Origin: a virus
IMG/VR virus record: IMGVR_UViG_3300042731_005760
Span: 1-25,508 of that record
Length of the DNA: 25,508 nucleotides
Strand: one strand, 5' to 3'
Each line of letters opens with the position of its first letter. Positions within the stretch are counted from its first letter, which is position 1. Shown here in pieces: positions 3,030 to 20,292 of this stretch. A program made the position numbers and the translations under genes. The notes below the pieces were generated by a model. The model saw only the letters and a program-made list of their open reading frames with translations, did not search any database and was not told where the DNA came from.

Positions 3030-3067
3030 GGGTGACGGTCTCGACTAAATATATGAGGCCGTCACCC
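3030..3067 (+). terminator. 13-bp hairpin after the capsid gene
   Basis: Arms 3030-3042 and 3055-3067 pair over 13 positions with one G-T pair; the 12-base loop is AT-rich. It lies 46 bases after the capsid stop codon and before the next ribosome binding site. There is no T run after the right arm, so it is not a classical intrinsic terminator. It could protect the 3' end of the capsid message or cause partial termination that lowers downstream expression. Confidence 0.5.
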
Positions 3068-3100
3068 ACTACATACATATAGCAATAAGGAGCAAATCCT

Positions 3101-3628
3101 ATGACATCTAAAACCGCGAAAGACGAACAAGTCAAGGAAGAGGGAGGGGCCGATTCCCTGAATCGGAACGTCGTCGAGACCGAGGCCGAACCGAAGCCTG
3201 CCAAAAAGACGACCCGACGTCGGCGCTCGACTAGAAAAGCGGCGCCTAAAAAGGTGGAGCCGGAAGAGCAACCCGAACCAGAAGTTCGGGCCGAGCCTGA
3301 CATCCAATTGACCATCGAAACCAAAGACGGAGAAGTCATTGAGATCGAGGGCACTATCGGAGAGCGACCGGACAACCCGGAGCCTGGAGATCAGATTGAG
3401 CCTTCCGAGCTTGAGCCAGCGGTTGAAATCCCCTGGATTCCACCGAAGCGCGTAATCGTCAAGAACCTCGGTGGCGGGCCGGCCGTCGTTGGCGTGAAGA
3501 CCCTACTCCCCGGTGAGGTCGGGCCGTGTACGTGGCCCCAGTTCCTTGCCGCGACCGACGCCCACCGTGGCTGGCTCCTTTGGAGCGAGGTGGGCGAAAT
3601 TAACTTCAGGAGTGACTTTCCGGCATGA
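3101..3628 (+). CDS. Lys/Arg/Pro/Glu-rich low-complexity virion-associated protein
   Basis: 175 aa, start ATG with AAGGAG at 3087-3092. Residues 1-70 are low-complexity and strongly charged, with a basic patch (KKTTRRRRSTRKAAPKK) that could bind DNA. Residues 70-110 are acidic and Pro-rich. The last ~60 residues look folded (VKNLGGGPAVVGVKTLLPGE then CTWPQFLAATDAHRGWLLWS). I do not recognise a named family. Its place directly after the capsid gene, and its ATGA overlap with the adaptor-like gene, suggest a head or neck component; it could also be a capsid-decoration or DNA-binding head protein. Confidence 0.75.
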   Translation: MTSKTAKDEQVKEEGGADSLNRNVVETEAEPKPAKKTTRRRRSTRKAAPKKVEPEEQPEPEVRAEPDIQLTIETKDGEVIEIEGTIGERPDNPEPGDQIEPSELEPAVEIPWIPPKRVIVKNLGGGPAVVGVKTLLPGEVGPCTWPQFLAATDAHRGWLLWSEVGEINFRSDFPA

Positions 3629-7838: not shown

Positions 7839-8306
7839 ATGCTGGCTTTTTTCGATAGGCACCTGGAGATCCTGATACCGGTCATTCTGGCACTCATTAC
7901 GATTGCCGGGAAGCTGGCAATGAACTACGCCAATAGCCGCAAGAATGGCACCGAGAAAGCCAGCAAAGAAGCCCAAACCAAGAAGACCGAGATCGAGGCC
8001 GCTCACATGCTCATTCAAGACTACCAGCAAGCCGTTACCGACCTGAGAAACGAAGTAAACGAATTGAATGCTGAGCGCGACCTGATGCGGGCCGAATTAG
8101 ATCAGCTGCAATCTGAGTTCCAGGAATTGCGAGAGACTAAAGACCGGGAAATTGCCGAACTTAAGTCAGAAATACGATCGCTCAAAGGGCAGCTAACTCG
8201 CGAACGTAATCTGCGCAAAGAGCTGGAGCACAGGCTTGCCCTGAGCCTGCCGAACGGGCTCGACACCTCCGAGGCGATAAATGGCCAATCAAGCGATGCG
8301 CATTAG
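7839..8306 (+). CDS. Membrane-anchored coiled-coil protein (holin- or spanin-like)
   Basis: 155 aa from ATG 7839, chosen because GAGG at 7829-7832 lies 6 bases ahead; GTG 7827 is the alternative. Residues about 8-27 (LEILIPVILALITIAGKLAM) form one membrane helix. Residues about 35-140 are a nearly unbroken charged coiled coil (LRNEVNELNAERDLMRAELD, ELRETKDREIAELKSEIRSL). One N-terminal membrane helix plus a long coiled coil is the layout of i-spanins and some single-span holin-like lysis proteins. Location immediately after the M23 gene supports a lysis role. No family-specific motif was seen, so the function is inferred. Its last 26 bases overlap the gp10-like gene. Confidence 0.6.
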   Translation: MLAFFDRHLEILIPVILALITIAGKLAMNYANSRKNGTEKASKEAQTKKTEIEAAHMLIQDYQQAVTDLRNEVNELNAERDLMRAELDQLQSEFQELRETKDREIAELKSEIRSLKGQLTRERNLRKELEHRLALSLPNGLDTSEAINGQSSDAH

Positions 8307-8655
8307 GTGGGAAATACCACCATCCGAGCTGGCTAAAGCCATCGAGAAGTATGACGACCAGTTCATGGAAGCCTTGTATGGCCTGGCCGAACGAAGCGGG
8401 GTCAAGATCCAGAATGAAATGCGCATCAATGCCCCGTGGACGGACCGAACGGGGCAGGCTCGTGGCAATCTCTTCGGAGTAGCCGAACGGCCGAAAAACA
8501 AAAAGTGGCTCGTGCGAATCTATGCCATTCACGGCGTTCCTTATGGCGTTTTCCTGGAGTTAAGGTACGGCGGCCGGTACGCGATTATCATGCCCACTTT
8601 GCAACGGCTCGGGCCGCAATTAATCAAAGACGTACAAGGGTTGCTCAAGGACTGA
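8281..8655 (+). CDS. HK97 gp10-like neck/tail-completion protein
   Basis: 124 aa, start ATG 8281 with a GAGG-type site (8269-8272); it overlaps the coiled-coil gene by 26 bases. The pattern APWTDRTGQARGNLFGVAE, then HGVPYGVFLELRYGGRYAII and PTLQRLGPQLIKDVQ is the characteristic order of the HK97-gp10 family (phage tail completion/neck proteins that help attach the tail). The N-terminal helix (SELAKAIEKYDDQFMEALYG) also fits. It precedes the portal by two bases after its stop, whereas gp10 genes usually follow head-tail connector genes. Confidence 0.75.
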   Translation: MANQAMRIRWEIPPSELAKAIEKYDDQFMEALYGLAERSGVKIQNEMRINAPWTDRTGQARGNLFGVAERPKNKKWLVRIYAIHGVPYGVFLELRYGGRYAIIMPTLQRLGPQLIKDVQGLLKD

Positions 8656-8657
8656 CA

Positions 8658-9980
8658 GTGGCCAGCATCCTCAATGCATTACGAAGTTTGTTTCGAGGCC
8701 GTACCGAGCTGGATCCAACCACCTCGGATGAAATGCTGACAATGGCGGCGCAGGGCAAGGCACCCAATCCAACCGAGGCCATGCTTACCCGCTTTGCGGC
8801 CGAGGGACAACGGGCCGACATAATCAACTTGTGTCGCAAGATGTACAATGAGGACACCCGGGCCAGCTCAGTCATCCAGACATTGGCGCGTGATGCCGTG
8901 AAGGGCGGTTTCCAAATTGAGACTGAAGAGGAAAGGGCGCTGACCGTTGCTCAGGAGCTGTTATCCCGTATCAATCTGGCCGAAAAACTTGAAAAGTGGA
9001 ATCGGGTGGCGTTCCGAGATGGAGATTGCTTCCTGGAGTTGGGTATCAATGCCCAGAGGCAGATCGCGATTATCACCAAAAAGCCGACCCTGCGAATGCG
9101 CCGGAACACCGATGACCGGGATATGTTCCAAGATCCGGAAAAGGCTTATACCTTAGTTCCCGAACACGTCTACGTGAGCAATGACCGGGAACTGGTGCAT
9201 TTCGCCGAGTGGCAAATCGTCCACGCTCGTTGGGATCATGATGAGGGAGACCGTTACGGCCGGCCGCTGCTGGCGCCGGCCCGCTCATCCTGGAAGCGCA
9301 TAAAAGAGGGAGAGCTGGACATCGCCGTTCGCCGGAAGACGAGGGCTGGGATTAAGTTTCTCCACAAAATCAAAGGGGCCGACGACGCGGCTCTGAAAAA
9401 ATATCAAGCCGAAAACAAGTCTGTGCTTGACAACCCCTTCGCTGCAGCAGCGGATTTCTTCATGTCCGACGACGGCGACATAAAAGTTATCCAGGGGGAT
9501 GCTAATCTTGGCGAGATCGAGGACGTGTTGCATCACATGCGAACGTGGTTCCTGTCAAGTCCGGTTCCTATGAGCATCCTTGGATACGGTCAGGATATTA
9601 ATTACTCAGTGGTGGAGCACCAGAAAGAGCAATACGACGAGACCCTGACCGAGGTGCAAAAGTGGGTTGTGTCGCAGTTTATCCGGCCAATCCTCGAAAT
9701 TGAGTGGCTGTTGAACGGCATCCTCCCCGAGACCGTCAAGTATTCGATTAAATGGCCGCCGAAAAAGCAGTTCACGCCGGAAGATTTGGAGAAAGTCGCC
9801 CGAGCTGCTTTGGCGTTACGCTCGCTGGATATGCCGGCCGAAACCTATGCCAAGATAATCGGCCGCTTTTTCCCCGATATCGACCCGGACATGCTATTGC
9901 CTGAAGCTGGTGCAATCATCGCCGACCAGGAGCGCCTGGCCAATATTGCTAGCAAGTTGGGTCGAGGTTTCTCTAAGTAG
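8658..9980 (+). CDS. Portal protein
   Basis: 440 aa from GTG 8658, two bases after the previous stop with CAAGGA (8646-8651) as ribosome site; a longer reading from ATG 8436 would overlap the gp10-like gene almost wholly and adds a Arg/Ser-rich shadow, so it was rejected. Features typical of portals: N-terminal ILNALRSLFRGR, a helical stem/wing region (RKMYNEDTRASSVIQTLARD), FRDGDCFLELGINAQRQIAI, the HFAEWQIVHARW and YGRPLLAPARSSWKR segment, and the crown/clip end with SSPVPMSILGYGQDINYSVV. Twelve copies form the DNA channel at one capsid vertex and bind terminase. The gene lies downstream of capsid and neck genes, unlike the usual terminase-portal-protease-capsid order. Confidence 0.85.
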   Translation: MASILNALRSLFRGRTELDPTTSDEMLTMAAQGKAPNPTEAMLTRFAAEGQRADIINLCRKMYNEDTRASSVIQTLARDAVKGGFQIETEEERALTVAQELLSRINLAEKLEKWNRVAFRDGDCFLELGINAQRQIAIITKKPTLRMRRNTDDRDMFQDPEKAYTLVPEHVYVSNDRELVHFAEWQIVHARWDHDEGDRYGRPLLAPARSSWKRIKEGELDIAVRRKTRAGIKFLHKIKGADDAALKKYQAENKSVLDNPFAAAADFFMSDDGDIKVIQGDANLGEIEDVLHHMRTWFLSSPVPMSILGYGQDINYSVVEHQKEQYDETLTEVQKWVVSQFIRPILEIEWLLNGILPETVKYSIKWPPKKQFTPEDLEKVARAALALRSLDMPAETYAKIIGRFFPDIDPDMLLPEAGAIIADQERLANIASKLGRGFSK

Positions 9981-9985
9981 CAAAC

Positions 9986-11191
9986 GTGGCCATCGACTTA
10001 CTCGACATCCCCCTTAAGGACTTGGCCCAGGCGCAGCAAACGGCCCTGATTCGTTTGCATTTGTACACCATGGCTGAGATCCATGGCGTCATGCTGGAAG
10101 TATCTAAGTCTGTCAGGGACGTATTTCAAGGCCGTGATGGAAGCGCCGAATTTTCATCGGCCGACGCAGGCTCTGTCTCGAATGCCGTACTAAGCGCCTG
10201 GGACGCGGGCCAGGATCGGCTGACCGAGATAATCGGGCATGGCATCCGGCACGCGGCCATGCTTCCCTTTGGCCAAATGGCCGTGATGCACGATGCCTTG
10301 TTGCTTCCCATAATAAATGAAGCGCAAGCTACGCCGACCGCTGAAGCCCGTTCGATTAACCATACGTATGCCGAAGCCCGCTCGATCGCCAGCGACAACC
10401 TCGGGCAGACGTTTGATGACATCCTGTATCAGACGGTTAACCGGACTTACTCCGACGATCTGGCCGTTAGCGACCGGCTATGGCGCATGGACGCCAATGC
10501 TCGCCGGGGCATCCGTCGCACGGTCGCGGCCGGAGTTGCTGAGCAAAAGTCAAATTGGGAAGTGGCGCAGGATTTAGAAGGCTATCTCGGAGCCGGAGCC
10601 GAATGCCCGAGATGGACACGATCCCGCCTCCAAGTCACGAAGGCAGACATCGCGGCCGGAGACGACACCGGCCGGATAACCGGCGGCGACTGTAAGGGGC
10701 AGGGCGTTTCCTACAATGCGCTGAGACTGGCCAGGACGGAAATGCAGTTCGCGGCGCACGCCATGACGCGGGAATTATTCGACGCAATGCCCTGGGTGGA
10801 CGCCGAGAGGTTCTGGCTATCGCCAGATCACCCGGAAGTGGACGAATGCGACGACTGGGAAAGTGGCGGGCCGAACGGTGATGGCATCTATCCGTTGGGC
10901 GAAATCATTCTGCCGTTACACCCGAATTGCCTGTGCTTCACAGAGGGAATCATTATTAGCGTCGAAGAGCTAATCGGCCGCTACCAGGACTATGCCGTTA
11001 GTGGGGGAGGTGGGTTCGGCCGTTACGCCAGTATGCTCGGCGGCGTGTTGGGCACGGCGCTAACCGGTTTCGCCATCAGCAATGTCATGGGCCATTGGCT
11101 CAACGATGACCCGAATCAACTCGACGACGTGTTTTATGCTTCGCAGGACATTCTGGCCGACGAGGAATATCGCTATGAGCTTTACGATTGA
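9986..11191 (+). CDS. SPP1 gp7 / Mu gpF-like minor head protein
   Basis: 401 aa, start GTG 9986, five bases after the portal stop; the ribosome site is weak, so coupling to portal translation is likely. The C-terminal half carries the family hallmarks: ALRLARTEMQFAAHAMTREL, HPEVDECDDWESGG and the cysteine/histidine end LPLHPNCLC, with several Cys and His that may bind metal. Family members bind the portal inside the head and assist DNA entry into the host. A Gly-rich run (VSGGGGFGRYASMLGGVLG) then a hydrophobic helix (TALTGFAISNVMG) close the protein, which is unusual and could contact membrane. It sits directly after the portal, as in most phages. Confidence 0.82.
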   Translation: MAIDLLDIPLKDLAQAQQTALIRLHLYTMAEIHGVMLEVSKSVRDVFQGRDGSAEFSSADAGSVSNAVLSAWDAGQDRLTEIIGHGIRHAAMLPFGQMAVMHDALLLPIINEAQATPTAEARSINHTYAEARSIASDNLGQTFDDILYQTVNRTYSDDLAVSDRLWRMDANARRGIRRTVAAGVAEQKSNWEVAQDLEGYLGAGAECPRWTRSRLQVTKADIAAGDDTGRITGGDCKGQGVSYNALRLARTEMQFAAHAMTRELFDAMPWVDAERFWLSPDHPEVDECDDWESGGPNGDGIYPLGEIILPLHPNCLCFTEGIIISVEELIGRYQDYAVSGGGGFGRYASMLGGVLGTALTGFAISNVMGHWLNDDPNQLDDVFYASQDILADEEYRYELYD

Positions 11192-11597
11192 GACCACCAT
11201 TCTGGCGCAGCTCCAGGCGGATGGTACGTTGACCACGTTGCTTATTGGAGGCATACACAACGAAGTGCAAATTGACAGGCAGAAAACAGAAAGCGCATTT
11301 GATAGCCAAACGAAAGAGCTTTTACCCTGTGCCAATCTAAAATTAGAGACAGAGTTGCCATACGGCCCGCTGGATGACAGCAACCGGGCCTTTATCACGA
11401 TCATGTTTTATGACCGGGCAGGATATTCGACGATTGAACAAGCGCGAGCACGTGTGTACACATTGTTGCACCGGCAGACTTTCACCGGAATTACTGAGGT
11501 ACGCCATGCTGATGACGTGCCCCGCGCGTGGGACGATGCGCTTGATTGTTATCTTATCCTTAGCCGTTATCAGGTAACGAGGAGCACGAAACAATGA
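11175..11597 (+). CDS. Tail-terminator-like protein
   Basis: 140 aa from ATG 11175, with GAGGA at 11162-11166 eight bases ahead; it overlaps the minor head gene by 17 bases. The order of elements - helix with ILAQLQADGTLTTLLIGGIH, a long strand LPCANLKLETELPYGPLD, RAFITIMFYDRAGYSTIEQA, RVYTLLHRQTFTG, and the end strand DCYLILSRYQV - fits minor tail/tail-terminator proteins that cap the tail tube at the head side. The position just before the major tail protein supports this. A longer upstream reading from 11082 has no ribosome site and was rejected. Confidence 0.65.
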   Translation: MSFTIETTILAQLQADGTLTTLLIGGIHNEVQIDRQKTESAFDSQTKELLPCANLKLETELPYGPLDDSNRAFITIMFYDRAGYSTIEQARARVYTLLHRQTFTGITEVRHADDVPRAWDDALDCYLILSRYQVTRSTKQ

Positions 11598-11941
11598 GAA
11601 TCTGCTATCAACAGCCAGGGAGACGCGAATGGAGGGTGGGGGATGAGGTTATCGTCTGGTCGGAAGATCATCCGGTCAACGACGTCAACGACCCGGAAGC
11701 ACTGGCCGAGATTCTAACCTATCCGTACCCGCAATTTGTCATCGATTATGCCGAGCCATTGCTTGAGGTTGTGGACGCAGAGACGGCCACAATACTGGCC
11801 TATGCCGGCATTGTCAACCTTGAAATGCTGGCTTTATTGGACGAAGACGGTTTCGACGCCTTGATGCAGCTTGGGTACAAGCAAGAAGAAATCGAAGGGT
11901 GGCGAGACAAGGCGTACGCAATCGCCGAGGCGCCATTCTAG
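11594..11941 (+). CDS. Hypothetical tail-region protein with helical C-terminus
   Basis: 115 aa, start ATG overlapping the previous stop (ATGA). N-terminus MRICYQQPGRREWRVGDEVI is beta-like; residues about 45-65 read PQFVIDYAEPLLEVVDAE; residues about 65-110 form helices (TILAYAGIVNLEMLALLDED, FDALMQLGYKQEEIEGWRDK) that resemble helix-hairpin-helix or SAM-type pairs. I do not recognise a named family. Translational coupling to the terminator-like gene and placement before the major tail gene suggest a role in tail assembly or the head-tail joint. Confidence 0.65.
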   Translation: MRICYQQPGRREWRVGDEVIVWSEDHPVNDVNDPEALAEILTYPYPQFVIDYAEPLLEVVDAETATILAYAGIVNLEMLALLDEDGFDALMQLGYKQEEIEGWRDKAYAIAEAPF

Positions 11942-11949
11942 TTTATCAA

Positions 11950-11969
11950 CCGGCCGTGGCAGCGGCCGG
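11950..11969 (+). terminator. Perfect 7-bp CCGGCCG hairpin
   Basis: CCGGCCG at 11950-11956 and CGGCCGG at 11963-11969 enclose a six-base loop, nine bases after the preceding stop codon. No T run follows. It stands at the head of the 199-base gap before the major tail gene and could limit read-through from the neck genes or protect an mRNA end. Confidence 0.45.
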
Positions 11970-12017
11970 CTATAAGTGGCAGGTGTAAGCCTGTCCCGAG
12001 GGACGAGGGATGCAGAA

Positions 12018-12125
12018 ATGACAGCTAACCCCAACCAAAACCAATCCAGGGACATGGCTTCCTGCGCCTGCCGATCATTTAGTGGTCGAGCACTGGAGAA
12101 ATCCGGTGAATATAAATCATATTAA
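12018..12125 (+). CDS. Possible 35-aa peptide or relic of a gene start
   Basis: The ORF reads MTANPNQNQSRDMASCACRS and continues to SGEYKSY, ending at TAA 12123-12125, 15 bases before the major tail gene. A GAGGGA site lies at 12005-12010. Eighteen bases around its ATG (12012-12029) are identical to those of the internal capsid start at 1211-1228, and MTANPN resembles MTANTN. This looks like a copied translation-start segment, perhaps the remains of another capsid-type gene start or a short leader that helps load ribosomes onto the tail gene. No function can be assigned. Confidence 0.3.
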   Translation: MTANPNQNQSRDMASCACRSFSGRALEKSGEYKSY

Positions 12126-12140
12126 GCAGGAGGTTATGTC

Positions 12141-12665
12141 ATGGCTTACGGTCAATATCCATTCGGCCTTAAAGACGTAAAACTCACAGATATATCCGGT
12201 TCGACGCAAGTCGATTTACCGGCCGCCCGGACGATGGGCTTCAAGGAAGCCTTGATCAACAGCGAGCTGCGTGGCGACGATCAAACCATCGCTGTGGCTG
12301 CTATTTCAGACAAGGTGGAATGGGCGCTCGAATCCGGTGGCATCAGTCTGGAAGCGTACGCTCTGATGAGCGGCCGTTCGGTTACTGTTGGAGGCACAAG
12401 CCCCAATGAAACCAAAACGCTGAAAATCCAGGCTGGTGAATCATTCCCTTACTTCAAGGTGTATGGGAAGTCTGTGGGCGACGGCGACGGCTCCGACATC
12501 CACGTCAAAGTTTACAAGTGCAAACTGACAGCCCCCATTGAGGGCACATTCCAGGACGGCGAGTTCCTGGTGACTTCGTGCAGTGGCATCGCCGTAGACG
12601 ACGGGGTGAACGGAGTCGCCGACATCGTACAGAACGAGACGGCAGCAATTCTACCGGCGAGCTAG
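12141..12665 (+). CDS. Major tail tube protein
   Basis: 174 aa, start ATG with AGGAGG at 12129-12134. The sequence fits a tube-forming beta-sandwich: MAYGQYPFGLKDVKLTDI, VDLPAARTMGFKEALINSEL, the exchange of charge in RGDDQTIAVAAISDKVEWAL, then ISLEAYALMSGRSVTVGG and SFPYFKVYGKSVGDGDGSDI. Hexameric rings of such a protein stack to form the tail tube. The strong ribosome site, a separate gap upstream and position before the chaperone and tape-measure genes all agree. It ends in tandem TAG TAG, as does the capsid gene. The length is near the usual 150-200 aa. Confidence 0.85.
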   Translation: MAYGQYPFGLKDVKLTDISGSTQVDLPAARTMGFKEALINSELRGDDQTIAVAAISDKVEWALESGGISLEAYALMSGRSVTVGGTSPNETKTLKIQAGESFPYFKVYGKSVGDGDGSDIHVKVYKCKLTAPIEGTFQDGEFLVTSCSGIAVDDGVNGVADIVQNETAAILPAS

Positions 12666-12686
12666 TAGGCTAGAACTTAGCCCAAT

Positions 12687-12818
12687 ATGGCATCTATCGC
12701 CGGTCGGCCGTGGACTATGGAGCTTACGCACTGCCATACAGAAATGGATGGCTCTGTGGTTCCGACCGGTCGGCGAATGTTGCCCGTTTATCAATCTAAT
12801 CGCCAAAGGGAGGCATGA
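12687..12818 (+). CDS. Possible 43-aa peptide filling the gap before the tail chaperone
   Basis: An ATG-started ORF (MASIAGRPWTMELTHCHTEM ... YQSNRQREA) covers most of the 156-base gap and stops 3 bases before the chaperone ATG. The upstream ribosome site is poor. It contains a 12-base palindrome at 12762-12773 (CCGACCGGTCGG). The close fit between its stop and the next start suggests coupling, but length and weak start leave it uncertain. No family is recognised. Confidence 0.3.
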   Translation: MASIAGRPWTMELTHCHTEMDGSVVPTGRRMLPVYQSNRQREA

Positions 12819-12821
12819 GAA

Positions 12822-13283
12822 ATGACAGCACTACCCAATACTGGACTTTCACTCGCCGAGTGGCGAGCCAGGCAAATTGAGGACGTTGTTTTGCCAAGTG
12901 GCCTGGCCGTCAAGGTAAAGCGTGTCGGCTTAAAAGAGTTGGCAGCTCAGGGCCGGATACCCGAAACGCTTCTCGGAATCATCCAGCAAGCGATGGACGG
13001 CTCCGGGGAAGAGGGTGGCCCGAAAATCAAGATCCAACTGGTAGACCTGGGCGCTATCGGCGAGGCCTACGATCTCGTGGCAAAAGCGTGCATCGTCGAG
13101 CCAAAGCTGGCTGATGAAGCCGATGACGAGCACCTATCCGTTGCCGAGCTTCCGTTCGAGGATAAGGAATTTATTTTCGAGCGGAGCAATCAGGAGGCAG
13201 TTTCTCTCGCGCCCTTTCCTTCAGGAAGTGCAGCAAGTGACGGAGCTTCACCTGATGGCCAGGACCTACCGGAGATTGCCTAG
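12822..13283 (+). CDS. Tail assembly chaperone, short form (gpG-like)
   Basis: 153 aa, start ATG with GGGAGG at 12808-12813. N-terminal strands (DVVLPSGLAVKVKRVGLKEL) are followed by helices around IPETLLGIIQQAMDG and YDLVAKACIVEPKLADEAD, then SVAELPFEDKEFIFERSNQE, a pattern common in short tail assembly chaperones. From about residue 132 the sequence becomes low-complexity (SGSAASDGASPDGQDLPEIA) because it has left the conserved frame. Located between the tube protein and tape measure, exactly where lambda G/GT-type genes lie. It binds and loads the tape measure protein during tail assembly. Confidence 0.75.
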   Translation: MTALPNTGLSLAEWRARQIEDVVLPSGLAVKVKRVGLKELAAQGRIPETLLGIIQQAMDGSGEEGGPKIKIQLVDLGAIGEAYDLVAKACIVEPKLADEADDEHLSVAELPFEDKEFIFERSNQEAVSLAPFPSGSAASDGASPDGQDLPEIA

Positions 13284-13523: not shown

Positions 13524-16500
13524 ATGTCAGTCCAACTTGGCAGCGCATACGGGGTAATCGAACTGGACGCCAGTGGCGTCGAGTCGGCCGTCGATAAAGC
13601 CAACTCTTCTCTTGGCCAGCTTGGGGGTGGACTGGCCAAAGTCGGCCTGGCCGCTGGAGCCGCATTGGTGGCCGGGGCCGCAGCTCTGGCTGGCGTGGCC
13701 GCGTCCGGCGTTAGCATGGCTAAAGACCTGGAAGCCCAAATGTCGGGCATCCAGGCCGTGATGGGCGCTACCGTCGAGGAAGCGGCCATGCTAAAGGAAA
13801 CCATCCTTGAGTTGGGTATTGACCCCGGCCTTAAAGTGACGACGCTGGAAGCTGCGGCCGCGGTCGAAATGCTCGGCCGTAACGGTCTCAAAACGCAGGA
13901 GATCCTGGACGGTGCGGCCCGGGCAACCGTCCTCCTGGCCAATGCGACCGGTGGCGAGTTTGGCCAGTCGGCCGACATCGCCACCGACGTCATGGCTCAG
14001 TTTAACTTCCAGGCCAGCGAGATGGAGACGGCCGTCGATGGCATCACCTCGGTTATCAACAACTCGAAGTTTACCATCACGGACTACCAATTTGCATTGG
14101 CGAATGCCGGCGGCGTGGCCGCATCTGTGGGCGTCGAGTTTGACGACTTCAATACCTCAGTAGCTGCAATTGCCCCATTGTTTGCCAGTGGCGCGACGGC
14201 CGGGGCCGGTCTTCAACGATTCCTGAGCGTTCTAAATCCGACGAGCAAACCGGCAATCAAGGCCATGCAGGAACTGGGCATCTGGACGGAAGAGGCCGGA
14301 AACCGGTTCTATGATTCTCAGGGCAACCTGAAAAGCATGGCCGAGATCGCCGGCATCCTGGAGGAGACCCTATCACCTCTATCTGAAGCGCAGCGCACAC
14401 AGGCATTGACGACGATTTTTGGTGCTCGGGCCATGCGCGTGGCCGTTGGTCTGATGAACACCGGGGAAGAGGGCTTCAGGAGCTTGCAGGAAACCATGGG
14501 TGATACGTCGGCCGCTGAAAATGCCGCAATCCGCATGGACAACCTTGCCGGGGCCATAGAAATCCTGATGGGCATTGTCGATACGGTGAAGATCCGGATC
14601 GGTGATACTTTCCTGCCAGTGTTAACGGACCTGGCCCGAGCAGCATCTGAATTTGTGAGCAAGCATAGTGACAAGTTTGTCGGCTTTTTCGAGAAGATCG
14701 CCGACGTCATTACAGCGTTTGTATCCGGCTCCCCGGGTGACTATCCATGGGAAGACATATTCCCGCCGTGGCTCGCCGGTCTGATGTACGAAATATCCGG
14801 CCTCGTGGAAGGCACGATGCAAGTTATCCAGGACATGCGAGACGGCGTGTTCAGCATCGACTACCCGTGGGAAGACGTGTTTCCTGAGTGGGCCGCCGAC
14901 ATCGCCTACAAGATAACGGACGCAATTAAGTTCTTTCAAGATCATGCAGAAGAGTTCGAGGCAGCTATTAAGGCCATTGGCGTTACGCTCGCCGCTTCCG
15001 GCATCGCCGCTATCGTGGTGACCATCGCCGGCGCACTGTTGAGCCTTATCAACCCGGTGACCATTGTCCTTGGACTAATCGGCCTGCTGGCCGCGGCCTG
15101 GGAGGGCAACTGGCTGGGCATCCGGGACAAAGTGCAGCCGATAATCGACGAAATTATTCCCAAAATCCAGGAGCTGGCTTCCAGCATCGGCGAGTTCCTG
15201 GGAGACGCGAAAGAGTTTGTCGGCGACTTCATTTCCCGCATTCAAGACGGAGAAGGGCCAATCGATGCCTTCCTCATTACGCTTGAGGCCTTCGGTATTC
15301 CTGGAGAAGCATTGGACAAAATCCGAGAGTTGGGCGAGATAGTCGGTTCCCTGGCCGAATATTTCAAGATAGTTGTCGAAGACGGAGACGCGCTAAACGA
15401 CTGGCTAACCCATTTGCCGGAGCCGATACAACCGCTGGTAGAATCCTTCGGCGAGCTTGTCGCCAAGATAAAAGAGGTCGGGGAGGGGATTGGCGAGTTC
15501 GTCGGCGACCAGGGCGCCAAAATTTCTGAATGGGTGGAAGAGAACCGGCCGCTAATCGAGGAGTTTGCACAGCGCATCGGTCTGATACTTGGCATTCTGG
15601 CGCTTGCATGGGCAAAAATCCAGACGGCCGCGCTCGGAGCCTGGGACGTTATCCTGCCAATCCTTGGAGGCTTGGTTGATTTAATCCTCGGGCTGGCCAA
15701 AACCATCATGCAGGTTGTGACCGGTGACTGGGAAGGGGCCTGGGAAACCATCAAGGAAACGGCCGTCAAGGTTTGGGAGGCGATTAAGGAAGCCGTTACC
15801 AATTTCGGCAATTGGGTCGCCGGTTGGTTCGGCACGTCGCTCGAAGGAATAAAAGAGACCTGGAGCGAAAACTGGGAACGGCTGAAAGAGATTGTCGGCC
15901 TCGCATGGGACAAAATCCGCCTTACAGTCCGGGCCAAATGGCGAGAGGTGAAACAGTCGATCACGGAGCCAATCAATAACCTGCTAAAAGAGTGGTCGAA
16001 TAAATGGGAGGTTATAAAAGCTCGGGTTGAGCGGGCTTTTATCCTGGCTAAGAACGCCATTATCAGGAAGTGGGAGGAGATCAGGACCGGGCTAACCGAT
16101 GGCGTCAAAATCTTCGTCGATGAATGGATAAAGAAATGGTTCATTTTGCGAACCAGGATCGCGCTGGCCTGGATTCAAGTCAAGATCGCCATTCTGAAGA
16201 AGTGGGACGAAATTGTCAGCTCTTTGGAAGGCAAAGTTGACGACGTGGTTAACTGGGCAAAAGAGACCTGGGAAAGCGTCAAGTCAACCATATCCGGGGC
16301 CTGGGACGGAATCAAGGCGCTACTGGAGCAAAAGGTACGCGAAATGTTCGAGGCCATGGGCCTCGACTACGACGAATACAAAGCGCGGTGGGAAGCTATT
16401 TGGGAAGATATCAAGCTCGTCGCCAGCACGGTTTGGGAAAACATCAAGACGGCCGTCTCTGAGAGAATCGCCGAGTTTATCCAGACGATAGTCGATTTCT

Positions 16501-18125
16501 TTGAGCCAAAAATCCAGTGGTGGGCCGATTTGTGGGAATCGTTCAAGTCCACGATAGGCGAAGCCTGGGATACCATTTCCACCAAAGTCAGCGAGGTTTG
16601 GGAGACCATCAGCACCACGATCAACGACAAGGTTACAACCGTCGTGGACTGGCTAACCGAGAAATGGGATTCCATCAAACAGTGGTGGCAAGAAACCTGG
16701 GACACGGTTTCCAGAAAGGTTAGCGAGGCCTGGGAGGCGATCTCCAGTAAAGTCAGCGAAGTCGTCGAATCCGTGCGCAGCACCATCGAGGAGAAGATAA
16801 ACGCCGCCAAAAATGCCGTAACTACGGCAGTTTCAAGCACCCGGGACACAGCCGGAGGTATTTGGGACGAAATCTCCGGCAAGGTCACTGAAATCTGGAC
16901 GGCTATTTCCAGTTTCATCACCACAACGGTCGAGACTATCAAGACGGCCGTCTTGGAAAAGATTGAGACAATCAAGACCGAGGCAGGACTCAAATGGATT
17001 GCATTCAAGACGAACGTCGAGACCATGTTCGGTGGCGTTGTGACGGCCGTCACCACTAAGATGAAAGAGGTGTATGACGCCATCACCGGCAAAATCCAGG
17101 AAGCACTTCAATGGGTGACTAATAACATCGAAACGGTTAAGCAGTTCGGCCGGGATCTGGTGCAGGGCGTGGTTGATGGTGTTGCCGAGAGTGCCGGGAA
17201 ATTGATCACCAAACTCACAAACCTGGCGGAAAGTGCATTGAAAGCGGCGAAAAAAGCGGTCGGGGCCGAATCGCCTGCAAAAGAGTTTATCAAGATCGGT
17301 GAGGCCACAATCCAGGGTTGGATCCTGGGTATGCTTGAGTTGGAGGATGAATTAGAGCGCACAGTATCCAGCATCGCCAACAAGATAATCAGTGTGGCGT
17401 CTTCCGTATCCAGTGCTGGGAAATTCTTTGCCAAGAAATACGAGAAGTCGGCTCTTGACCCCATCGCCGAGAAGATAGCCGAGTACGAGCAACAGCTTGC
17501 CAATTTGGAAAGATTCCTGGGGCAAAAGCAGGATAGTAGGAACGCAATCCAGCAAGAGTACAATCGGCTCCTCGAAGAGCGGAACAAGTTGGCGGAAGAG
17601 TACGAGGAAAAAGCGAAAAACATCGCCGAGTTTGAAAGACAACAGAGCCGCTTACAGTTCCTACAGCAACAAGTCAACCTGATACGCTCGATTCAGGACG
17701 CGGGCCTCGACCCGGCCGAGATCCTGGAGGGCTTGAATCTTGGCCTGGACGCCACCCTGCCGGAGCTAATTGAAGCGACATCCCGCTTCATTGGTGCAAT
17801 GGTGGATGAGGCCAATGATATTTTGGAGATTCAGTCGCCGTCGAAGGTATTCAGGCGCATTGGCGAGCAGAGTGTGGCCGGTTTCATTGAGGCATTGAAA
17901 CACGCGAAATCGGACGTGCAAAAGGTGACCGACCAGGCCATTGGCGGAGCTGTCCGGCCGGGAGTGACTATACCAGACCTTGCGGCAATGAGTGCGTTAG
18001 CTCCGGCAACCGGAGTTTACACCACACACGAGGGCAACAAAGCCTTGCACATTTACGGCGACGTGCGCCTCGAAAGAGTCGATAGCGGCGAGGATTTAAT
18101 CGAAAGACTTTTGGATCTGGATTAA
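13524..18125 (+). CDS. Tail tape measure protein
   Basis: 1533 aa, start ATG 13524 with GGGGA at 13513-13517. Residues about 60-370 are a TP901-type tape-measure core (AKDLEAQMSGIQAVMGATVE, FGQSADIATDVMAQFNFQAS, ALTTIFGARAMRVAVGLMN). A 40-residue tandem unit with DYPWEDIFPPW and DYPWEDVFPEW starts at residues 406 and 446. Hydrophobic stretches lie at about 485-535 and 685-735. From about 735 to 1150 Trp recurs every 7-15 residues in helices. Residues about 1311-1395 are a Gln/Glu coiled coil. Two SPAK/SPSK modules (ESPAKEFIKIGEATIQG; QSPSKVFRRIGEQSVAG) close the protein. It sets tail length and enters the host on DNA injection. Its last bases are part of a direct duplication. Confidence 0.93.
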   Translation: MSVQLGSAYGVIELDASGVESAVDKANSSLGQLGGGLAKVGLAAGAALVAGAAALAGVAASGVSMAKDLEAQMSGIQAVMGATVEEAAMLKETILELGIDPGLKVTTLEAAAAVEMLGRNGLKTQEILDGAARATVLLANATGGEFGQSADIATDVMAQFNFQASEMETAVDGITSVINNSKFTITDYQFALANAGGVAASVGVEFDDFNTSVAAIAPLFASGATAGAGLQRFLSVLNPTSKPAIKAMQELGIWTEEAGNRFYDSQGNLKSMAEIAGILEETLSPLSEAQRTQALTTIFGARAMRVAVGLMNTGEEGFRSLQETMGDTSAAENAAIRMDNLAGAIEILMGIVDTVKIRIGDTFLPVLTDLARAASEFVSKHSDKFVGFFEKIADVITAFVSGSPGDYPWEDIFPPWLAGLMYEISGLVEGTMQVIQDMRDGVFSIDYPWEDVFPEWAADIAYKITDAIKFFQDHAEEFEAAIKAIGVTLAASGIAAIVVTIAGALLSLINPVTIVLGLIGLLAAAWEGNWLGIRDKVQPIIDEIIPKIQELASSIGEFLGDAKEFVGDFISRIQDGEGPIDAFLITLEAFGIPGEALDKIRELGEIVGSLAEYFKIVVEDGDALNDWLTHLPEPIQPLVESFGELVAKIKEVGEGIGEFVGDQGAKISEWVEENRPLIEEFAQRIGLILGILALAWAKIQTAALGAWDVILPILGGLVDLILGLAKTIMQVVTGDWEGAWETIKETAVKVWEAIKEAVTNFGNWVAGWFGTSLEGIKETWSENWERLKEIVGLAWDKIRLTVRAKWREVKQSITEPINNLLKEWSNKWEVIKARVERAFILAKNAIIRKWEEIRTGLTDGVKIFVDEWIKKWFILRTRIALAWIQVKIAILKKWDEIVSSLEGKVDDVVNWAKETWESVKSTISGAWDGIKALLEQKVREMFEAMGLDYDEYKARWEAIWEDIKLVASTVWENIKTAVSERIAEFIQTIVDFFEPKIQWWADLWESFKSTIGEAWDTISTKVSEVWETISTTINDKVTTVVDWLTEKWDSIKQWWQETWDTVSRKVSEAWEAISSKVSEVVESVRSTIEEKINAAKNAVTTAVSSTRDTAGGIWDEISGKVTEIWTAISSFITTTVETIKTAVLEKIETIKTEAGLKWIAFKTNVETMFGGVVTAVTTKMKEVYDAITGKIQEALQWVTNNIETVKQFGRDLVQGVVDGVAESAGKLITKLTNLAESALKAAKKAVGAESPAKEFIKIGEATIQGWILGMLELEDELERTVSSIANKIISVASSVSSAGKFFAKKYEKSALDPIAEKIAEYEQQLANLERFLGQKQDSRNAIQQEYNRLLEERNKLAEEYEEKAKNIAEFERQQSRLQFLQQQVNLIRSIQDAGLDPAEILEGLNLGLDATLPELIEATSRFIGAMVDEANDILEIQSPSKVFRRIGEQSVAGFIEALKHAKSDVQKVTDQAIGGAVRPGVTIPDLAAMSALAPATGVYTTHEGNKALHIYGDVRLERVDSGEDLIERLLDLD

Positions 18126-18174
18126 AAATGGCCAGCAACATGCGACCGAGTACCTATGATTGTCATGCAATAAA
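18068..18174 (+). repeat. Junction duplication, copy 1 (end of tape measure + false start of next gene)
   Basis: These 107 bases align with 18175-18281 with 11 differences, ten of them transitions. Copy 1 supplies the real C-terminus of the tape measure (LERVDSGEDLIERLLDLD) and then a duplicate start of the distal tail gene (MASNMRPSTYDCHAIN). Confidence 0.95.
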
Positions 18175-18232
18175 CCTTGAAAGAGTCGATAGCGGCGAAG
18201 ACTTAATCGAAAGACTTCTGGATCTGGATTAA
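18128..18232 (+). pseudogene. Chimeric 34-aa ORF made by the junction duplication
   Basis: It starts with 16 codons equal in sense to the distal tail gene start (one change, Gly to Cys) and runs in frame into a second copy of the tape measure C-terminus (LERVDSGEDLIERLLDLD), ending at TAA 18230-18232. The start context is the same as that of the true gene at 18235, so it could be translated, but it is best read as a by-product of the duplication with no function of its own. Confidence 0.8.
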
Positions 18233-18281
18233 AAATGGCCAGTAATATGCGACCAAGCACCTATGACGGTCATGCGATAAA
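18175..18281 (+). repeat. Junction duplication, copy 2 (second tape-measure end + true start of distal tail gene)
   Basis: Second member of the 107-base pair. It repeats the tape measure terminus with four synonymous changes and carries the functional start of the distal tail gene at 18235. Ten of the eleven differences from copy 1 are silent in the frame that matters for each half. Confidence 0.95.
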
Positions 18282-20292
18282 CGACGGAAACAACTACGTC
18301 AGCACCGTGCTGAACTGGCCCGGTTTTGCCGACGCCAATCACTATGAGAGCGACCGGCCCGGAGCTATGCCTGTTTTGGGCACGATGTCCTATAAAGGGA
18401 TTAAGTTCGTCTTGCTCGTGGCCATTGAGAACGTGACCAGCGCTGACACGTTACGAAAGCAGCTCTCCCAGTGGTTTGATCCCAAAGGCGGCGATAGTAA
18501 GCAACTGGTGTTCACAGACAGCGATGGAGCCAGCAATCCCCGGTACCTGATGGTTCGGCCGTCGAAGATGATGCCCGTAGGCAATACCGGCCGACTTCAT
18601 TGGGCCATTACGCTGGTCGTTGACGGAGCCGGAGACATCGACGGCCGTCTTCGACGCACGACGACCGACACCTTGAACTGGAGCGTTACCAGTAACGGTG
18701 ACACGCAGGCAATTACGAACGACGGCGAAGACGACGCCTATCCGGTCTATAAAATCAAGCCGACCGCTTCCAAGACCGGTGACTATAACTACAGCCGCTG
18801 GTGCCCGATTCGTTGGCGCGTGTGGAATAAAATTTCCAACTATCCGACCGACATTGTTGACGCTGGCCTCGACACGGCCAGTTTAATCACGAATAACAAG
18901 TTGCACAGCTCCGGCCGGGACCTGGCCGTGTATGTGAACGGAAAAAAGGTTCCCCGGTGGATTGGGAATTTGAACACAGCTTCAAGCCGGATATGGGTGA
19001 CGCTCGATTGGGAAATGCCGGGCGAAGCCTGGTTAAGGGTTTCAATACCTGCGAGCGGCAGCATATCCGAAATAAGCATCAACCCCTTTGACCCGATAAC
19101 GGGCATTCCAGATTATCGGCCTATCATGAGCAGATTCCCATCCTCGGGCATTCTCATGATCGACAACGAAGCCTTCCAATACACCAGCAAAAATGATAAT
19201 AACGGCTATTTTTACGGCATCACCCGTGCAGTGCGAGGCACCAGCATGGCCGCTCATACCGGCTCGAATCTCCCCGGCACCCTGATTTGGGGCGTGCAGC
19301 ATGACATCACGATTGTCTATGACAATACCCAAATTACGAGCGACCCGATACAAAATGACGTAAAAAAACCACTTTTTGACCTGGATATGAGTACCAATGA
19401 TTTGTGGTTTTACACTGAGTTTGGCGACAACTCGGGCCAGCGACCGTATCAATGGGGTTTTATCCGTGACAGCTTGTGGGGCACACCCACGGCCGTGCAT
19501 TACACCAAAAGCCAGGATAAGGATATGCCAGCCGACCCGTGGGAAGTCATGGGTATTTATTTACGAAGCCATGATTCCTATGGCGTAGCACCTGACGGCC
19601 GCATCTATGACGGTGAAGCGCAATCTGCATGGATTCGCTTTTTCAATGAGGTAGGCATAAAAAGTTATGCCATTACTAGCGGCTACAAGATGAGGCCGAG
19701 CGGTGCATCGGGCACCTGGAATGCCAAGGCGTTTATGGCCGATGGTGGCCAGAATAGCCATGTAGATTACCTGATTCCAGAGCCAGGCCTACGTGATTCA
19801 TGGGAAGCATGGAGCCGGACATCGCCCACATTGCCAAAATGGACTTATTTTTTTAATACGACTCAGTTTTCACGGCACCCGACGACTCTTTACATCTATT
19901 CCCGGACGCCTAAACAAGATGAGTGGTATGTGGAGTTTGGCGATTGCACGATTAACCTCGACACCAACCGCACGCCGCTACTACACTTCCTGGGGCCTGA
20001 AATTTCCAGCCGGTACAACCTGGACGTCGTCATCGAAAACACGACCACGGGCGAGCAAATGCGCATCCAGTTCCCTATGGCAGTTGATGAAACGTTTGTC
20101 GTGGATACCGACAAAAAGCTCGTCTATTTTGCCGCAGATGGAAGCAATCAGTTTCAGGCCATGTCGTTACCGGACACGATCCGGCGAGATTGGCTCAAAT
20201 TACAGCCGGGAAGCAATACCCTGAAATACAACGAAGCTGGCGTCAGCACCGCAACCGTGACGGTCGAATGGGTGGAGCGATTCTATGATTAG
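18235..20292 (+). CDS. Distal tail protein (Dit) with large insertion
   Basis: 685 aa, start ATG three bases after the duplicated tape-measure stop. Residues 1 to about 150 are Dit-like (NWPGFADANHYESDRPGAMP, SQWFDPKGGDSKQLVFTDSD, ARMMPVGN-type turn, LHWAITLVVDGAGD). The last ~70 residues also fit (ETFVVDTDKKLVYFAADG, DWLKLQPGSNTLKYNEAG), so about 430 residues are inserted between the two parts. The insert holds a unit with LMIDNEAFQYTS and YFYGITRAVRGTSMAAHTGS, often seen in phage tail-tip proteins. A Dit hexamer joins the tube to the hub; inserts commonly carry host-binding domains. Its end overlaps the hub gene by 8 bases. Confidence 0.78.
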   Translation: MASNMRPSTYDGHAINDGNNYVSTVLNWPGFADANHYESDRPGAMPVLGTMSYKGIKFVLLVAIENVTSADTLRKQLSQWFDPKGGDSKQLVFTDSDGASNPRYLMVRPSKMMPVGNTGRLHWAITLVVDGAGDIDGRLRRTTTDTLNWSVTSNGDTQAITNDGEDDAYPVYKIKPTASKTGDYNYSRWCPIRWRVWNKISNYPTDIVDAGLDTASLITNNKLHSSGRDLAVYVNGKKVPRWIGNLNTASSRIWVTLDWEMPGEAWLRVSIPASGSISEISINPFDPITGIPDYRPIMSRFPSSGILMIDNEAFQYTSKNDNNGYFYGITRAVRGTSMAAHTGSNLPGTLIWGVQHDITIVYDNTQITSDPIQNDVKKPLFDLDMSTNDLWFYTEFGDNSGQRPYQWGFIRDSLWGTPTAVHYTKSQDKDMPADPWEVMGIYLRSHDSYGVAPDGRIYDGEAQSAWIRFFNEVGIKSYAITSGYKMRPSGASGTWNAKAFMADGGQNSHVDYLIPEPGLRDSWEAWSRTSPTLPKWTYFFNTTQFSRHPTTLYIYSRTPKQDEWYVEFGDCTINLDTNRTPLLHFLGPEISSRYNLDVVIENTTTGEQMRIQFPMAVDETFVVDTDKKLVYFAADGSNQFQAMSLPDTIRRDWLKLQPGSNTLKYNEAGVSTATVTVEWVERFYD

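Follow-up and report, generated by a model that had tools for sequence, protein, structure and literature searches.

The stretch of uncultured phage DNA analysed here (the window, 25,508 nt; IMG/VR record IMGVR_UViG_3300042731_005760) carries at the boundary between its tail tape-measure and distal-tail genes a 107-nt unit in two directly adjoining copies. We lean towards reading this duplication as a real joint formed by recombination between two related phages whose DNA differs by about 10%. The two copies differ almost exclusively at silent sites in both genes, and both genes remain whole. The features of the junction are as follows.

13524..18125, + strand: tail tape-measure gene, 1533 aa (PHROGs/Pfam tape measure, PhageMin_Tail)
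18068..18174, + strand: copy 1 of the 107-nt unit, with the working tape-measure end and an unused distal-tail start
18128..18232, + strand: 34-aa chimeric frame between the tape-measure and distal-tail genes, read directly from the sequence
18174..18176, no strand: junction between the copies; C18175 is, judging from the flanks, probably common to both parental flanks
18175..18281, + strand: copy 2 of the 107-nt unit, with an unused tape-measure end and the working distal-tail start
18235..20292, + strand: distal-tail gene, 685 aa (PHROGs Dit 3.7e-7; Pfam SPP1_Dit C-terminal domain 2.9e-9; 37% identity to the relative in contig L010)

The duplicated gene boundary

Two independent programs, TRF and a repeat finder, recovered the unit exactly twice, at 18068-18174 and 18175-18281, with 11 mismatches between the copies (10 transitions and 1 transversion), in agreement with the coordinates and the count given in the original prediction. 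The unit comprises the last 18 codons and the stop of the tape-measure gene, followed by the first 15-16 codons of the distal-tail gene. Ten of the 11 differences are silent. All four differences in the tape-measure half belong to this class, both copies encoding LERVDSGEDLIERLLDLD followed by the stop, and so do six of the seven in the distal-tail half, where the peptide reads MASNMRPSTYD[C/G]HAI and the lone replacement places Cys in copy 1 and Gly in copy 2; this distribution, including the Cys/Gly exchange, had been described beforehand and was confirmed in full. Beyond the copies, the identity of the flanks falls to chance level (16/60 upstream and 19/60 downstream). The contig is free of any N, and the copies adjoin without a gap.

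Despite the duplication, the open reading frames 13524-18125 and 18235-20292 are both whole. The final 18 codons and the stop of the tape-measure gene lie inside copy 1, and of the two distal-tail start codons, at 18128 in copy 1 and at 18235 in copy 2, the latter is the working one. The unused distal-tail start is fused to the unused tape-measure end, giving the chimeric 34-aa frame MASNMRPSTYDCHAIN-LERVDSGEDLIERLLDLD. Out of 25295 possible positions for a 107-nt tandem duplication in the window, 3300 (13%) leave all genes intact. The composition on either side of the joint revealed no clear step at 18175. An RNA element was considered as well and rejected, the fold z-score being 0.43 and neither Rfam nor a tRNA search giving a match.

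Divergence of the copies and distance to relatives

The nearest relative found was a 4803-base IMG/VR contig (L002, IMGVR_UViG_3300027917_001866), which corresponds to window positions 8051-12880 at 83-95% DNA identity. The window and L002 differ on average at 12.9 positions (sd 6.4) per ungapped 107-nt stretch, and on this comparison the copies, with 11 differences in 107 nt, lie at the distance that is usual between strains of this phage group. The silent share of the differences between the window and L002, calculated with the gene at 11175 excluded, was 69%, with which the 10 of 11 found between the copies is compatible (P 0.10). Transitions were slightly over-represented between the copies relative to the window and L002 (P 0.04).

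Under unselected decay, at least 10 silent differences among the 11 would arise with a probability of 2e-6 if rates are equal, 2-3e-5 under the transition bias derived from L002 and 2.4e-4 if only transitions are allowed; the silent-site test was picked after the pattern had been noticed, though the margin is large. Since neutral decay in place is so improbable, the divergence most probably accumulated in two lineages, with both halves still parts of working genes, before the copies were joined. The original prediction had argued that decay in place would not keep both frames silent, and that two diverged lineages, each under selection, were joined at this spot; these probabilities bear out the first argument and, together with the distance similar to that of L002, support the second.

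Searches of viral_contigs with the distal-tail, next-tail-gene, tape-measure C-terminal and fibre proteins, as well as with a degenerate DNA pattern, yielded no relative at strain level for either side of the joint, and none that spans it; in the phage records there was no match by DNA or by the distal-tail protein. The only relative found with both genes was L010 (JAHIUU010000022.1), a phage tail module on a phage-like contig filed in a Candidatus Dependentiae genome, in which the tape-measure gene, the distal-tail gene and the next tail gene follow in the same order. A plain 17-nt spacer separates the tape-measure and distal-tail genes of L010, with no chimeric frame, and this shows the ordinary layout of the boundary; at 33-37% amino acid identity, L010 is too distant to date the duplication event.

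L002 itself contains a duplicated boundary, that of a head-morphogenesis gene and the next gene (3045-3343; copies 3045-3175 and 3176-3343), which is absent from the window and adds 131 bp relative to it. One of these copies has lost 36 nt, carries a frameshift and replacements, and encodes MSSTTETTMLITGGIYNEIQVDRRRQQTLL..., and the remnant ahead of copy 2 reads TLSEEEILNELYD versus ILADEEYLYELYD. If the L002 contig is sound, this suggests that boundary duplications occur in this phage group.

Several other features were observed along the window. About 100 bases between the major tail gene and the next gene (12666-12781), including the inverted repeat CGCCGGTCGG / CCGACCGGTCGGCG, are missing from L002. 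A head-maturation protease and a capsid protein are apparently fused in one 962-aa frame (95-2983), and L008 and L009 likewise align with this frame over most of its extent. Two 27-base segments (GGATGCAGAAATGACAGCTAACCCCAA), 12008-12034 and 1207-1233, are identical at 25 of 27 bases while 10.8 kb apart; one lies inside the protease-capsid frame, and the other, which L002 retains, sits in the leader ahead of the major tail gene.

Origin of the duplication

On the reading that we favour, the joint would have been formed by an out-of-register (illegitimate) crossover between the two related phages. The left parent would be a phage read as far as codon 15-16 of its distal-tail gene, and the right parent another phage read from 19 codons ahead of the end of its tape-measure gene. 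Both genes would stay whole because the overlap contains the gene boundary, and the cost of the crossover would be the duplicated boundary and the 34-aa chimeric frame between the genes. A two-step variant would give the same product: a tandem duplication would come first, and the DNA of a relative would then be brought in at the start of copy 2 by homologous recombination. We infer the join in a DNA molecule, its crossover origin and the assignment of the two sides to the parents; from such a join it follows that the tape measure would derive from one lineage and the distal tail from the other. Counted in favour of the joint are the silent pattern, the L002-like distance, the 13% chance of sparing the genes, the absence of N, the boundary duplication in L002 and a mycobacteriophage precedent described below. 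Counted against it are the plain spacer in L010, the excess of transitions relative to L002, and the origin of the record as one metagenomic virus contig, with no second record carrying the duplication and no strain-level relative found across the joint. Strain mixtures are, moreover, the classic setting for false duplications.

It is a serious possibility, though not the reading that we favour, that the duplication arose during assembly or library preparation, so that no phage carries it: contig ends of two co-occurring strains would have been concatenated, or bridged by a chimeric read, with the 107-nt overlap too different to merge. The single metagenomic record fits such an origin, as does the fact that the copies differ at exactly strain-level distance, and unmerged haplotypes are a well-documented source of false duplications in mixed-haplotype assemblies (PMC9516828). 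Such false duplications are, however, marked by gaps (PMC9516828), whereas no N stands between the copies here. The jump from ...GCAATAAA to CCTTGAAAG has one base in common with the inferred parental flanks, and a k-mer graph assembler would thus need reads across the jump; these could come from a chimeric molecule in the library. Both genes are left intact at this position, as would occur by chance in 13% of cases, and this also speaks against an assembly or library join. Among 80 marine-phage IMG/VR loci (678,589 bases), no comparable adjacent diverged duplication of a length not divisible by three was found; this weighs against assembly joins, but the survey bounds real events and artefacts alike and does not decide between them.

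A simple tandem duplication in one lineage, which then diverged in place while selection on the chimeric 34-aa frame kept the changes silent, appears very unlikely. Such selection would likewise leave the changes silent in both reading frames, and the chimeric frame is indeed open over 18128-18232. Without selection, however, the observed pattern has the low probabilities given above (2e-6 to 2.4e-4), the chimeric frame only repeats parts of the neighbouring genes and is absent from L010, and the comparable duplication in L002 decayed with a deletion and a frameshift. A mutagenic pair of template and variable repeats, as in diversity-generating retroelements, would account for two diverged copies of about 107 nt beside a tail gene, but its probability is negligible: the copies are adjacent, and they differ by mixed transitions at silent sites with no bias towards A. 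Pairs of that type were found in L011 (16374-17135), L015 (13494-14188) and L017 (19209-19952), where repeats of 115-116 nt differ almost only at adenines of one copy, like template and variable repeats. The mutation spectrum in the window, with differences that do not fall at template adenines, refutes this candidate.

If the recombination joint is real, a module exchange between close relatives has been caught soon after the event, with the crossover point and the parental halves still readable, and such legibility is uncommon for mosaic joints. It is a more speculative and rather unlikely proposition that phages of this group repeatedly exchange modules through out-of-register crossovers that spare both genes and leave boundary duplications. 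In that event each exchange would have left a duplication as a scar by which it could be dated, recent and still silent in the window, decayed in L002, and illegitimate recombination among close relatives could be read directly from such scars. Should the duplication be an assembly join, it would caution that, in virus collections, overlaps between strains can be mistaken for duplicated gene boundaries.

Comparison with known joints and duplications

Under either reading, a real joint or an assembly join, the event is of a known kind. Mosaic joints that lie close to gene boundaries and show little homology are a standard finding of phage comparative genomics, and illegitimate recombination is a usual explanation for them (PMC3029335). 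The window resembles such joints in its breakpoint at a gene boundary, in the functions kept and in the little homology at the joint, but differs in that the partners are close relatives, about 10% apart, and for this reason the overlap is visible as a duplication. The L002 boundary duplication occurs in the same phage group and likewise involves a duplicated gene boundary; its copies are decayed, whereas those of the window are cleanly silent. False (heterotype) duplications in assemblies (PMC9516828) share with the window the adjacent diverged copies of one locus, yet they usually show a gap between the copies together with half depth, and the window has no gap.

The closest described case is that of genes 67 and 68 of mycobacteriophage Island3, in which about 60 bp of a gene 3' end recur at the end of the small gene that follows (PMC3029335, Fig. 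5C). The last 18 residues of this small gene repeat those of the upstream gene, which the authors attributed to intra- or intermolecular recombination (PMC3029335). Recomputed here, the Island3 repeat spans 57 nt with 5 differences, of which 3 are silent and 2 change the protein. Both cases represent a gene-end repeat with diverged copies. The Island3 copies are, however, separated by 257 nt, and an 85-residue gene of new sequence lies in this interval; moreover, Island3 is an isolate, and its near-identical relative Brujita has a single copy. With its copies directly adjacent, the window case is tidier than Island3.
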